Shown: positions 16,329 through 43,560 of the stretch, piece after piece
Layout: the number at the start of each line of letters is the position of its first letter
Position numbering within the stretch: the stretch's first letter is position 1
Assembly (NCBI GenBank): GCA_022361255.1
Contig: JAKSBG010000242.1
Location: forward strand, 1 to 43,560
Direction of reading: 5' to 3'
Length of the DNA stretch: 43,560 bases
Origin: Verrucomicrobiales bacterium
GTDB lineage: Bacteria > Verrucomicrobiota > Verrucomicrobiia > Verrucomicrobiales > DEV007
Made by a program: the position numbers and the translations under genes
The notes under the pieces: generated by a model
Seen by the model: only the letters and a program-made list of their open reading frames with translations
Databases searched by the model: none
Told to the model about the DNA's origin: nothing

Positions 16329-17474
16329 ATGCACAGAAAATCAATCTTCTTTCTGCTTTCCGCTGTATCCATCCTCGTTATTGTCGGCGTGGTCATGCTC
16401 ATCAGTACCTGTATTTTCAGTGCAGATGCTGATGCCGAAAACGGGTACCGGGAAGCAAAAAGGCAGGCCGTCTGGCTCGCGGTCGGGATTGCCGTTTGTG
16501 TATTTGCCGCGCGCTGTGACTACCGTTTCTGGCGCCGCAATAATTGGATGATCTTTGTCGGAGTTTGCTTTCTCCTGGCGCTTTGCTTTGTTCCATTCGT
16601 TGGTCTTGAAATCAATGGGGAACGTCGCTGGATCGGGTTCCGACCGTTTCAGATTCAGCCATCAGAGCTTGGAAAAATCGCGGTCGTCGTATTTCTCGCC
16701 TGGTGGTTCAGCCGCCATCCAGACAGCGGACGCCACCTTTTACGCGGCTTTGCCTTTCCGCTCGCGATTGTGGGGATTCCCATCGGCTTGATTCTCTTTG
16801 AGGTTGATATCGGGTCTACGATTGTTCTGACTGCGACAACCTTTCTTGTTCTCTTCGTGGCGGGTACGGATTGGAAGTATTTGACGGGTCTCACAATGAC
16901 CGGAGTAGCAGGGTTTATCGGAATGCTCAGTTACGCACCGGATCGTCTCGAGAGGATCATGGCTTTTCTTGATCTGGAGGCGCACCGCTACGGAGCGGGG
17001 TTCCAGCAATGGATTTCTCTGATGGCAATCGGATCGGGTGGACTCGACGGAAGAGGTGTGGGTGAAGGGCGATTGAAAATGCTCTACATGCCGTTCGCTC
17101 ATACCGACTTTATCTTTCCGATGATCGGTGAGGAGATGGGGCTTGCAGTCACTTTGTTGGTGGTGATTGCTTTTATCACACTCGTTATTTGCGGGTTTGT
17201 TATCGGGTTTCATGCTCCTGACAGATTTGGAATGCTGCTTTCCATAGGGTTGGTCGGTTACATCGGCTTTCAGGCGTTTCTCAACATCGGCGTGGCAACG
17301 TCAATTCTCCCGAACACAGGACTTACCTTGCCGTTTGTCAGTTACGGTGGATCGTCGCTCGTGATCGCCTTTCTCTCTGTTGGGATCCTGATCAATATCT
17401 ATCGACAGGGAATTTCGATAGATGAGGAATCCCGGGAGTGGGTGCGCCGCAAGCGGATCACTCCCCGAGTATAG
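16329..17474 (+). CDS. ftsW: FtsW, SEDS peptidoglycan glycosyltransferase
   Basis: 381 residues, about ten TM helices. SEDS hallmarks: INGERRWI followed by QPSELGKIA, EVDIGSTIV, the extracytoplasmic HTDFIFPMIGEEMG loop with D260 at the position of the catalytic Asp known from RodA, and the C-terminal TLPFVSYGGSSL motif. It polymerises lipid II into glycan strands together with its cognate class B PBP, here FtsI encoded 6 kb upstream. It ends the dcw run in this window: a 10-bp hairpin follows and the next gene is an M81 peptidase rather than murG or murC. A second SEDS gene lies at the right end of the window. Confidence 0.93.
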   Translation: MHRKSIFFLLSAVSILVIVGVVMLISTCIFSADADAENGYREAKRQAVWLAVGIAVCVFAARCDYRFWRRNNWMIFVGVCFLLALCFVPFVGLEINGERRWIGFRPFQIQPSELGKIAVVVFLAWWFSRHPDSGRHLLRGFAFPLAIVGIPIGLILFEVDIGSTIVLTATTFLVLFVAGTDWKYLTGLTMTGVAGFIGMLSYAPDRLERIMAFLDLEAHRYGAGFQQWISLMAIGSGGLDGRGVGEGRLKMLYMPFAHTDFIFPMIGEEMGLAVTLLVVIAFITLVICGFVIGFHAPDRFGMLLSIGLVGYIGFQAFLNIGVATSILPNTGLTLPFVSYGGSSLVIAFLSVGILINIYRQGISIDEESREWVRRKRITPRV

Positions 17475-37988: not shown

Positions 37989-38723
37989 TTGAAAACCTTC
38001 GCGCTTCCATTTCTCGTCGCAGGAACTTTCTTCGTCTTTCCCGCTGGTGCGGAGGAGGGAAAAGAACCGTTCTATCAGGATGAATTCTCCGGCAGGACAG
38101 TCAACTCGATGGAAATGGCTTCCGCACTCGTCGTGAACCGCTTCTACAATGCGCCCCGCTACGGAACCCGGGCACCTTCCTTTGCAGCCGAAGATATCGA
38201 AACCGGGGAAACGGTTCTTCTTAAAGAGTTATACGCGGAGAAGCCGGTTGTACTGCTCTTTTCCTCCTGGGGATGCGACGTGATGCGGGACAGTAGCGCC
38301 GACCTTCTCGCGGTTTACGAAAGATTCCGGGCGGATTTTTCTTTTGTCATGATTTACATCCGCGAAGCTCATTCGCTCGACGGACATCATTCCCGGCTCG
38401 GGCGTGTCAAAGACCCGAAATCAGCCGCCGAGAGGAAATCCGCTGCGCAGGGCTGCCGCAAAGCCCTGAAGTTGCCATTTCGCATTCTTACCGACCGCAT
38501 CGACGACCGTATTGCGACTCGCTGGGGAGCGTGGCCAATCCGGCTCTTCGTAGTGAATACGGAAGGCACCGTGGTCTATTCCGGCAAACCCGGTCCGTGG
38601 GGATACAGCCCCGGAAATGGATTCAAAGCAGACCTGGCCGACGAATTGAAAAAACATGCCGACCGCTTTAGTCAGGAGTCGCTGGAGGACTTTCTTGAAA
38701 GCTGTCTCCGCGGGAAAAACTAG
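37989..38723 (+). CDS. iodothyronine deiodinase-like thioredoxin-fold protein (Cys form)
   Basis: 244 residues from a TTG at 37989; no ATG occurs in frame before the mature domain, and the TTG start gives a good signal peptide (MKTFALPFLVAGTFFVFPAGA). The core resembles the T4_deiodinase family: RAPSF..., VVLLFSSWGCDVMRD at the place of the selenocysteine motif, then DFSFVMIYIREAHSLDGHH, which matches the IYI-EAH-x-DGW block of deiodinases. The Sec position is a TGC cysteine. Bacterial members are probably redox or peroxiredoxin-like enzymes of unknown substrate; thyroid-type activity should not be assumed. It lies 55 bp upstream of the kinase/phosphatase fusion. Confidence 0.72.
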   Translation: MKTFALPFLVAGTFFVFPAGAEEGKEPFYQDEFSGRTVNSMEMASALVVNRFYNAPRYGTRAPSFAAEDIETGETVLLKELYAEKPVVLLFSSWGCDVMRDSSADLLAVYERFRADFSFVMIYIREAHSLDGHHSRLGRVKDPKSAAERKSAAQGCRKALKLPFRILTDRIDDRIATRWGAWPIRLFVVNTEGTVVYSGKPGPWGYSPGNGFKADLADELKKHADRFSQESLEDFLESCLRGKN

Positions 38724-38778
38724 TCGATTGAGGGAAACGAATTTTGCAATTTTTCCGGAAGCCGGGACATTCAAAGCT

Positions 38779-39996
38779 ATGAAAATCGCGAAAGACGGCA
38801 TCCGGTCCATCGTAAAAGTCGGCTACGACGGACGAGTCTACAAAACTTTCCGGGGAACGGACAAAGAAAATCGATTCGCGAACGAAGTGCGTGTCCTGAA
38901 GGCCCTCGAAGCCCGGGGCTGTGACTATGTTCCCCGTTTGCTGGACGACGATCCCGACGAGCTTACTATTGTAACCACCAATTGCGGTGCTCCCGCAGAG
39001 ACATCCATCAGCGAAGAAAAAGCGCAGTCCCTTTTTGAAGATCTGGAGAAAGAATTCGGAATTGTTCACGACGATCCGTTTCCCCGTAACATCACCTACA
39101 ACCAGCGATCCGGATCTTTTAACATTATTGATTTCGAGCTCGCGGAGGTAAAGGAGGACCCACAGCATCGCGAAGGCTCCGACGAAGCGCACCGGACTCT
39201 CACCTGGTGCGGCACCTCACGAGATGGAAGACGCAAACCCGGGAATCAGGATGCACTTTCCGTTTTTTCCTCCCACGGAGGATGGGCTGAGTCGCTGGAT
39301 CTCAGCGGGACGCAGTCCATCGACGAGAGCGGGCTTGTTTTTGCCGTCAGCGACGGAATGGGAGGGCAGGCAGGTGGTGAGATTGCCAGCAACCTTGTCG
39401 TCCGCGACTTGCGGCGCTTCCTTCCCGCCATGATGGGGGACTTTCATGGAGCAGCCGATCAGGAGGCCATTCTCGAAGCTGCGGTCCGTTCTCTTCACGA
39501 CTTTGTGAAACGCACCGGTGATCACTCCGACCATCTGAAAGGAATGGGCGCCACAGTTGTCTGCGGGCTTTTTTACCGCACGCGCGTTGTATTCGCTCAC
39601 GTCGGCGACAGCCGGTTCTACCGCTATCGAAACGGCGAGCTCACCCAACTTACCCACGACCACACCTATATTGGCGGTCAGTTCCGTTCCGGGAAGATCA
39701 ACGAACGTCAAATGCGGATGCATCCGCGCCGGAATGTGCTCCAACAGGCTATTGGTGGTGGCTGCCAGTATGTCACCCCGCAAGTAGACTCCTCCTCCAT
39801 TGAGTCCGGAGACTGGTTTCTCATTTGTTCCGACGGAGTCATCGACGGATTGTGGAACAAGAACATCGCCTCGGCCTTCGAGGAAGGTATCGAAAAGGAA
39901 CAGAGCGCCGATGAAATCTGTCAGCGCATTCTCGAGTGGTCTTTTGAAGAAGCCGGGGCGGACGACACCACGCTTTTCGTGGTTAGGGCGAAGTAG
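38779..39996 (+). CDS. Bud32-like kinase fused to PP2C-type protein phosphatase
   Basis: 405 residues from ATG 38779 (earlier in-frame starts overlap the preceding gene). Residues ~10-130 form a minimal kinase-like lobe: K22 in VYKTF, E36 in FANEVRVL, the catalytic loop H97-D-D-P-F-P-R-N104 and metal site D118-F-E. Residues ~150-405 form a complete PP2C phosphatase: NQDA, D192-GMGGQAGG, MGATVV, HVGDSRFYRYR, LTHDHT, a VLQQAIGG strand, WFLICSDGV and DDTTLFVV, with the metal-binding aspartates in place. Both activities on one chain, without a membrane segment, suggest a cytoplasmic switch or a phosphatase controlled by its kinase-like part. The partner protein is unknown. Confidence 0.85.
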   Translation: MKIAKDGIRSIVKVGYDGRVYKTFRGTDKENRFANEVRVLKALEARGCDYVPRLLDDDPDELTIVTTNCGAPAETSISEEKAQSLFEDLEKEFGIVHDDPFPRNITYNQRSGSFNIIDFELAEVKEDPQHREGSDEAHRTLTWCGTSRDGRRKPGNQDALSVFSSHGGWAESLDLSGTQSIDESGLVFAVSDGMGGQAGGEIASNLVVRDLRRFLPAMMGDFHGAADQEAILEAAVRSLHDFVKRTGDHSDHLKGMGATVVCGLFYRTRVVFAHVGDSRFYRYRNGELTQLTHDHTYIGGQFRSGKINERQMRMHPRRNVLQQAIGGGCQYVTPQVDSSSIESGDWFLICSDGVIDGLWNKNIASAFEEGIEKEQSADEICQRILEWSFEEAGADDTTLFVVRAK

Positions 39997-41625: not shown

Positions 41626-42408
41626 ATGGAGCTCCTGGAGGTGGAAAATTTGAAATTGCTCGAGCAGCGGCGGCGACGGAGCTGGTTTCGGTACGATTTA
41701 TCTGAGAGAGTCTTAATTGATGATGTCTCTTTCTCGATCGAGAAGTGGCGCAGTCTCGGAATCGTTGGCGAGGAAAACAGCGGGAAGCATGCGCTGGTAA
41801 TGGCGCTCCTGAAATTTCAGGAGGTATCCGAAGGGCGGATTACATTCGGTGAGGTCGTTACGACCGAAATTGGAGAACGTCATTTCAGGCGTCTGAGAAA
41901 GCGGATTCAAGCATTGTTCTCAGAAGGATTTGGGCAACTGACTCCGGAACTCACCGTGGATCAAATGTTTCGGGAGGTGCTTGCCGTCTGGTTTAGAAGA
42001 GAGGGCCGTGAAGCCTGGGAGCGAAGGGTTGAAGAAGTGATGGTTTCCTGCGGGCTGCCCGAAGCAGTTCGACCGCTCTATCCTGCGGAACTCGATGCGG
42101 TAGAGCGTCAGCAGGTGGCATTGGCAAGGGCTCTTTTAAGCAAGCCGGATTTTCTGATTTGTCACGGTTTTACGAAAGGTTTGGATGCTGTTCAGGAGGG
42201 CGAACTTCTAAATTTGATTCGCCGTGTGAGGGAGCAGTATGGCTTGACCCTTCTGGTGACTACGGACGACCTTGCGGTTGCGCATCAATTGAGCGATGAT
42301 ATCGGCGTGCTTCATCGCGGACGACTTGTCGAATTAGCTGACGCAGAATCGATAGTAAACCGGCCCGTGCATGATTATACCCGTCGTCTCGTGAGTTTCT
42401 CGCTTTGA
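41626..42408 (+). CDS. OppF/DppF-like ABC ATPase homologue with all catalytic motifs degenerate
   Basis: 260 residues from ATG 41626; an upstream frame start at 41563 adds 21 unlikely residues. The fold pattern follows oligopeptide-transport ATPases (SLGIVGEENSGKHAL; LRKRIQALFSEGFGQLTPELTV; VQEGELLNLIRRVREQYGLTLLVTTDDL; a PVHDYTRRL tail). Yet each catalytic site is changed: Walker A ends K54-H55 instead of KS/T; the Q-loop Gln is Ser (LFSEGF); LSGGQ is replaced by L156-D-A-V-E160; Walker B reads LICH180-G181 in place of D-E; and the H-loop His is D214. The frame is intact, so this looks like a conserved non-catalytic protein rather than a decaying gene. No permease gene is adjacent. A SEDS gene follows 18 bp downstream. 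Confidence 0.75.
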   Translation: MELLEVENLKLLEQRRRRSWFRYDLSERVLIDDVSFSIEKWRSLGIVGEENSGKHALVMALLKFQEVSEGRITFGEVVTTEIGERHFRRLRKRIQALFSEGFGQLTPELTVDQMFREVLAVWFRREGREAWERRVEEVMVSCGLPEAVRPLYPAELDAVERQQVALARALLSKPDFLICHGFTKGLDAVQEGELLNLIRRVREQYGLTLLVTTDDLAVAHQLSDDIGVLHRGRLVELADAESIVNRPVHDYTRRLVSFSL

Positions 42409-42426: not shown

Positions 42427-43560
42427 ATGACCCCGCTTTTTCGAAAATTCCTGGGTATCAACTGGCTACTGTTTGCCAATATGGTGGCCCTGTTGATTTT
42501 TGGTGTGTTTGCGGTCTACAGCGCGTGCTGGATGAGGGACCAGGAGGCTCTTGCGACCAAGTGGAAGGATCAGGTATACTGGATTTTACTCGGTCTTGTC
42601 GTGTTCTTTGTCGCTAGCTTGATTGATTACAAATGGATCAAGTATCTGGCGATACCGTTTTATCTGACGGCAACGGGACTGTTGATTTTTACGACCTTTG
42701 CAGGGACTGAGATCAACGGAACTCGTGCCTGGCTTGATGTGGGTCCCATGCTGATTCAAACCTCGCAGCTTGCCATTGCCGGAGGGCTGATTTTGCTCGC
42801 TCTTGTATTGAGCACTCTGCATCGCCTGCATCCGGTGTTGAGAAATCCTTTCATGCGCCTGCTTGTTTCGGGAACGGTTGCGATGATACCGTTCGCATTC
42901 GTCCTTATTCAGGGCGATTTCGGGTCGGCTATCGTTTGGATCCCGGTGGCCGGAGCAATGGTGTTGATCGGAAATATTCCGTTCCGGTTTTTCATCGTGA
43001 TCATTTTGAGCGTTACCATGTTTTTGCCATTCGCATTTTTTTTCGGGTTGAAAGACTACCAGAAGAAGCGGATCACGACGCAGATCGAAATGTTACAGGG
43101 CAAAAAGGTGAACGTTCTTGCCGAGGCCTACAGTGCTCACAACAACCTCCTTGCAATTGGTAGCGGAGGGTGGAGCGGGAAGGGGTTCAAAAATCCTGAT
43201 ACGATCAATAACAAGGGATTTATTTCCCCGGATACCGCGATCAATGATTTTATTTTCCCGGTGTTTTCCGAAGAGTTCGGGTTTCGAGGGAGTCTTCTTG
43301 TGATTGGAGGTTTTCTCCTTCTCTTGATGCAACTGATCTACGTCGCATTTTACAGTCGTGACATGATGGGGCGACTCGTAGTCGTAGGGGTGGTCGGCTT
43401 GCTGTTTGCACACATTTACCAGAATACTGCAAGCAGGAAAGGAGAAGGAGGTGTTAACACATTACCACTTCTCCTTTTCATTCGGTTTAATTGTCTTAAA
43501 GCAGAGACGGACATCGCCAGAATAACAATCAAATCCACTTCGAACTACCTTTCTTATCCA
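42427..43560 (+). CDS. RodA/FtsW-type SEDS protein, C-terminus aberrant and open at right edge
   Basis: ATG 42427; the frame is open to the window edge (378 codons). Residues 1-333 are a good SEDS protein: NGTRAWLDVG followed by QTSQLAIAGG, IQGDFGSAIVWIP, and the extracytoplasmic loop AINDFIFPVFSEEFGF with D274 at the catalytic place, up to LLFAHIYQN333. At this point relatives continue with a last pair of helices containing GIPLPxxSYGG. Here the next 45 codons (TASRKGEGG...) have no such motif in any of the three frames, turn AT-rich and contain a hairpin. The gene therefore seems interrupted near 43426, by an inserted element, a rearrangement or a chimeric contig end. It should be the elongation-type glycosyltransferase (RodA), since ftsW is in the dcw cluster. 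Confidence 0.8.
   Translation, partial: MTPLFRKFLGINWLLFANMVALLIFGVFAVYSACWMRDQEALATKWKDQVYWILLGLVVFFVASLIDYKWIKYLAIPFYLTATGLLIFTTFAGTEINGTRAWLDVGPMLIQTSQLAIAGGLILLALVLSTLHRLHPVLRNPFMRLLVSGTVAMIPFAFVLIQGDFGSAIVWIPVAGAMVLIGNIPFRFFIVIILSVTMFLPFAFFFGLKDYQKKRITTQIEMLQGKKVNVLAEAYSAHNNLLAIGSGGWSGKGFKNPDTINNKGFISPDTAINDFIFPVFSEEFGFRGSLLVIGGFLLLLMQLIYVAFYSRDMMGRLVVVGVVGLLFAHIYQNTASRKGEGGVNTLPLLLFIRFNCLKAETDIARITIKSTSNYLSYP
43438..43477. repeat. 10-bp inverted repeat just inside the rodA break
   Basis: AAAGGAGAAG (43438-43447) and CTTCTCCTTT (43468-43477), with a 20-nt loop that includes the palindrome GTGTTAACAC (43451-43460). It begins about 12 bp after the point where RodA similarity ends. It may be the subterminal hairpin of an inserted element, or a terminator of a gene entering from the right. 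Confidence 0.5.

Follow-up and report, generated by a model that had tools for sequence, protein, structure and literature searches.

The window, the whole 43,560-nucleotide stretch of DNA that was analysed, contains an open reading frame (ORF 41626-42408) whose stop codon lies 18 nt before the ATG of rodA at 42427. The features discussed below are:

41626..42408, + strand: open ORF for an OppF-derived pseudo-ABC-ATPase, 260 aa
41764..41790, + strand: former Walker A, residues 47-55 (VGEENSGKH); Ser/Thr55 replaced, Lys54 kept
41908..41934, + strand: former Q-loop, residues 95-103 (QALFSEGFG); Gln99 replaced by Ser
42088..42111, + strand: former signature, residues 155-162 (ELDAVERQ); now fixed as LDAVE in most genus members
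42151..42168, + strand: former Walker B, residues 176-181 (FLICHG); Asp180-Glu181 replaced by His-Gly
42262..42276, + strand: former H-loop, residues 213-217 (TDDLA); His214 replaced by Asp in 22/22 genus members
42427..43431, + strand: rodA (SEDS polymerase); similarity to other rodA genes ends at about residue 335, close to the end of the contig

The ORF product has an ABC_tran domain (Pfam; 1.5e-14, 55.2 bits against a cut-off of 25) and an OppF-type fold, and by descent is a nucleotide-binding domain (NBD) of the OppF/DppF type. AlphaFold2, using 31 aligned sequences, predicted a complete NBD (pLDDT 94.7, pTM 0.91). The top Foldseek match was OppF of OppBCDF (8z21_D; TM 0.95 on the query; 27% identical along the full chain), and the nearest solved chains were E. 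coli OppF (first in Foldseek), MetN, and PhnK. Unlike OppF and DppF, whose fold it shares, the window protein has damaged motifs, a shortened oligo_HPY region, and no neighbouring permease gene. The best-matching curated models (NCBIfam) were YejF and OppF, both far under their cut-offs; for the OppF equivalog PRK15079.1 the score was 136.3 bits against 540, a cut-off also missed by a canonical relative from the same position before rodA (328.8 bits). FtsE, an ATPase with FtsX as its partner, is an ABC NBD associated with the cell-wall machinery and shares the fold (Z 28.0); the window protein did not reach the FtsE equivalog (82.6 bits against 264.85). A near relative, L058, from a metagenome-assembled genome recorded as Verrucomicrobiales bacterium, was 69% identical.

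The downstream gene matched FTSW_RODA_SPOVE and, among curated models, best matched TIGR02210 (RodA), below the cut-off of that model; the contig ends inside the gene. This is the SEDS gene that the first-pass annotation had placed 18 bp downstream. The last 130 bases (window 43431-43560) do not resemble rodA of relatives and may be an assembly junction or an insertion. The contig also encodes the division SEDS protein FtsW (window 16362-17408).

Catalytic motifs of the window protein and its orthologues

Motif changes were scored against canonical relatives occupying the slot directly before rodA. GESGSGKST of the canonical Walker A reads GEENSGKHA in the window protein, with Ser/Thr55 replaced by His; SGGQ of the signature reads DAVE, and DE of Walker B reads HG. 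The D-loop Asp187 is still present. The protein thus lacks the intact set of five motifs that marks a functional OppF/DppF-type NBD; its ABC fold is retained and its ATP site is damaged. The first-pass annotation had described five lost motifs in a preserved frame with an OppF-like tail. All five are indeed damaged, but the lesion in Walker A falls on the Mg-binding Ser/Thr, not on Lys54. Likewise, the 260-aa frame is open, but the tail consists of the first residues of oligo_HPY only; beyond them the OppF C-terminal region is missing, and the canonical relative lacks the same part.

The window's genus (g1) has 22 full degenerate orthologues, the window copy included, plus one partial copy, and related, partly degenerate copies occur in 13 genomes from other genera of the family (f1). 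Every one of these 36 copies, from more than thirty species, lies directly before rodA, a constant linkage in a neighbourhood whose genes farther upstream and downstream vary between genera. The orthologues thus combine shared substitutions with a shared rodA neighbourhood, as the first-pass annotation would have expected of a selected gene. Neither chance nor sequencing or assembly error accounts for the motif pattern, because it recurs in 22 genomes.

None of the 22 g1 members keeps the Walker A Ser/Thr or the Q-loop Gln; the Walker B Asp is lost in 19/22, and the Walker A Lys in half (11/22, the window copy being among the 11 that keep it). The signature Gln has become Glu160 in all 22 and the signature Ser has become Asp157 in 21, Asp214 replaces the H-loop His throughout, and the D-loop Asp is kept. 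Mean column entropy of Walker A is 0.11 bits in canonical slot proteins and climbs to 1.52 in g1; that of the signature and H-loop columns in g1 stays low, at 0.61, in their new states. This pattern is the mark of a freed site beside a newly constrained face. Other f1 genera show intermediate conditions: the H-loop His persists in g10 and g17, g11 has lost the signature and H-loop but still carries GxxGxGKT and the Walker B Asp, and in g12 the Walker A Lys is replaced by Thr. In the tree, g1, g16, and g12 group apart from canonical slot proteins; the position of g11 and g18, both on long branches, is uncertain.

Selection on the degenerate gene

In the three closest g1 pairs dN/dS was 0.12-0.14 (Nei-Gojobori), against 0.03-0.18 for rodA in the same pairs; values for distant pairs are untrustworthy since sites are near saturation. 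Median dN relative to RodA was about 2.8x in g1 and 0.7x in canonical genomes, so that constraint on the g1 protein is real but looser. The low dN/dS and the residues refixed in new states exclude a recent pseudogene. Together with the orthologues and their shared substitutions, they lend good support to the earlier suggestion of selection for a non-catalytic role. The gene is nevertheless dispensable in places, since two near-complete g1 genomes have rodA but no longer this gene, and pairs with G145, which like G020 is a long branch, gave dN/dS near 0.5.

Linkage to rodA

Other families of the order (f3, f4, and f5) have a canonical OppF-like gene immediately ahead of rodA, as do 15 of the 23 rodA loci examined in other orders of the class; the motifs are intact in all of them. 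Because a canonical OppF holds the slot in these families and orders, the rodA linkage is older than the catalytic loss; being ancestral, it was rejected as proof of a partnership with RodA.

Conversely, no such gene lies beside rodA in at least ten rodA-bearing f1 genomes, namely G045, G167, and eight others with readable upstream flanks, all free of ABC genes before rodA. Three g1 genomes that are 91-92% complete (G011, G014, G022) had no recognisable rodA, MreB, or OppF-derived gene, suggesting loss of the whole rod system; a single deletion could suffice to explain the absence of the gene from rodA-less genomes. In two genomes of family f2 (G024 and G031) MreB is present and just one SEDS protein was found, RodA seemingly being absent.

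Covariation of evolutionary rate with RodA beyond that with FtsW and MreB was weak (partial r 0.33, Mantel p 0.035; r falls to 0.14 on dropping one genome), and was set aside as support. In many g1 genomes rodA is followed by genes for a GldA-type ABC ATPase, an ABC-2 permease, a GldG-like protein, and a DUF4340 protein (loci L038-L051 and L182-L187). This arrangement was not found in the other families examined, and as a genus-only operon of a different ABC subfamily it was discarded as a source of partners.

A lone OppD accompanies the canonical gene

A monophyletic group of 26 OppD proteins (SH-aLRT 100) is encoded at loci where, in 25 of 26 cases, OppF is absent beside the oppD gene. This lone OppD is present in 25/26 genomes with a canonical rodA-linked slot; the exception, G200, has a fragmented assembly in which it was not found. 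It also occurs in G160, where the canonical copy lies away from rodA. None of the 24 degenerate-slot genomes has it, and it is also missing from another 18 genomes for which no rodA-linked copy is known. In 11 class-level outgroup genomes an OppC-type permease gene is directly followed by the lone OppD gene, and no permease gene was seen beside the rodA-linked slot in the loci examined. Read most simply, the rodA-linked canonical gene supplies the F subunit missing at the lone OppD locus; its co-occurrence with lone OppD makes it look like a transporter subunit. The contrast of 25/26 with 0/24 gives a Fisher p of 4e-13 that ignores kinship. Because loss of lone OppD and degeneration fall on one clade, this contrast is close to a single evolutionary event, and is a strong hint rather than statistical proof.

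Two other Opp loci occur in the window's genus: an OppD/OppF pair encoded side by side, and an OppABC operon that has no ATPase genes. The latter was seen at L245, L248, and L254, followed by a feoB-type gene (judged by eye); the ATPases of this OppA-OppB-OppC operon probably come from the OppD/OppF pair encoded at a distance, in L247 and L250. Redundancy with a second OppF (L004 type) is not a sufficient cause of degeneration, since canonical slots coexist with a second OppD/OppF pair in G025, G061, G046, G435, and G468 (and, on a wider list, G200).

Discussion

We consider it probable that the rodA-linked protein is a selected pseudoenzyme descended from the oligopeptide-importer ATPase subunit OppF, and that it now probably has a non-catalytic job. 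Comparison of the slots shows that the ancestral gene before rodA encoded a canonical OppF-type NBD in a permease-free neighbourhood. Co-occurrence and gene order suggest that this NBD was the F subunit of a dispersed importer, with OppD and the other components encoded elsewhere. The window's family no longer has the lone OppD, a pattern near to one event, while having another OppD/OppF pair and an ATPase-less permease operon. The rodA-linked OppF shed its catalytic residues stepwise until nearly all were gone in g1, with the frame and purifying selection retained despite the loss. What the protein does now is a more tentative matter: it may serve as a scaffold or allosteric subunit without ATP turnover, acting through the refixed signature/H-loop face, its partner most plausibly being RodA or another elongation protein.

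The proximity of rodA had earlier suggested a wall-related job. Such a job is possible without being established, given that the linkage is ancestral, that some f1 genomes have rodA without the gene, and that the canonical form is transporter-like. In favour of a RodA-related role for the degenerate protein are the constant linkage of all 36 copies and the lack of the gene in the three g1 genomes that have no recognisable rodA and MreB; against it, the excess rate covariation is also weak. Such a role is possible but less likely than not, and its specific form, in which a stand-alone NBD has turned into a nucleotide-independent RodA accessory subunit that binds via the refixed signature/H-loop face, is doubtful. 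The literature searched, which covered few subscription journals, contained no report of rodA-oppF linkage or of a RodA-linked degenerate ABC ATPase, and no precedent for a stand-alone, OppF-derived, rodA-linked subunit with both site halves damaged.

Among known systems, PhnK and PhnL of carbon-phosphorus lyase are ABC proteins that act outside a transporter (PMC9947105; PDB 7z19). Their ABC fold is similar and is among the top fold matches of the window protein (Z 32.8). Both are reported to require ATP binding and hydrolysis in vivo (PMC9947105), whereas the window protein has no catalytic site, and thus lacks the intact ABC motifs on which ATP-driven remodelling of this kind depends. In heterodimeric ABC exporters, degenerate sites are kept by selection inside transporters (PMC7756269). 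The window protein resembles these in that ABC motifs were lost and the new state is conserved across orthologues; it differs in that the exporters have one degenerate and one working composite site, whereas the Walker and signature halves are both lost from the window chain.

The exporter precedent raises the question of whether the protein still serves a peptide importer as a non-hydrolysing NBD paired with a canonical OppD. Its intact fold, matching OppF in OppBCDF, and the ATPase-less OppABC operon in these genomes are consistent with this reading, as are the selection-kept degenerate sites of the exporters (PMC7756269). It is unlikely all the same, because loss of Walker and signature halves from one chain would damage both composite sites, the inferred OppD partner is missing, and the same genomes have a canonical OppD/OppF pair.

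Slow decay after loss of the transporter, with the gene kept for a while mainly since its deletion would disturb rodA expression through translation coupling, would fit the short gaps between stop and start codons, from a few to about 35 nt, the long branches of G145 and G020, and the lack of such a gene before rodA in G045 and G167. Coupling alone, however, would leave the protein sequence unconserved, and the dN/dS of close pairs and the residues refixed in 22 genomes make this account quite improbable. A nucleotide-sensing switch, in which ATP is bound via Lys54 in the window species and left unhydrolysed, is very unlikely: Lys54 is retained in the window and in 11/22 genus members, and g11 keeps GxxGxGKT and the Walker B Asp, but with the Mg-binding Ser/Thr gone from all 22, Lys from half, and Walker A varying freely, nucleotide binding can hardly be a function shared by the genus.

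Relative to these alternatives, descent from OppF to a selected pseudoenzyme is preferred, and what is new here, on our best reading, is the evolutionary route, by which a peptide-importer subunit persisted as a pseudoenzyme after losing its OppD partner. Because one slot is held by canonical relatives and by half-degenerate and fully degenerate ones, the order of motif loss can be traced in this family, as can its link to the loss of the transporter partner. Were the RodA link true, the elongation machinery of Verrucomicrobiota would gain an unexpected accessory, and an ABC domain would be seen to be useful without nucleotide.

Elsewhere in the window, the gene at 38656-39996 encodes a protein with a PP2C-type phosphatase domain (residues 222-410), preceded by about 200 residues that have no Pfam match and look kinase-like by eye.
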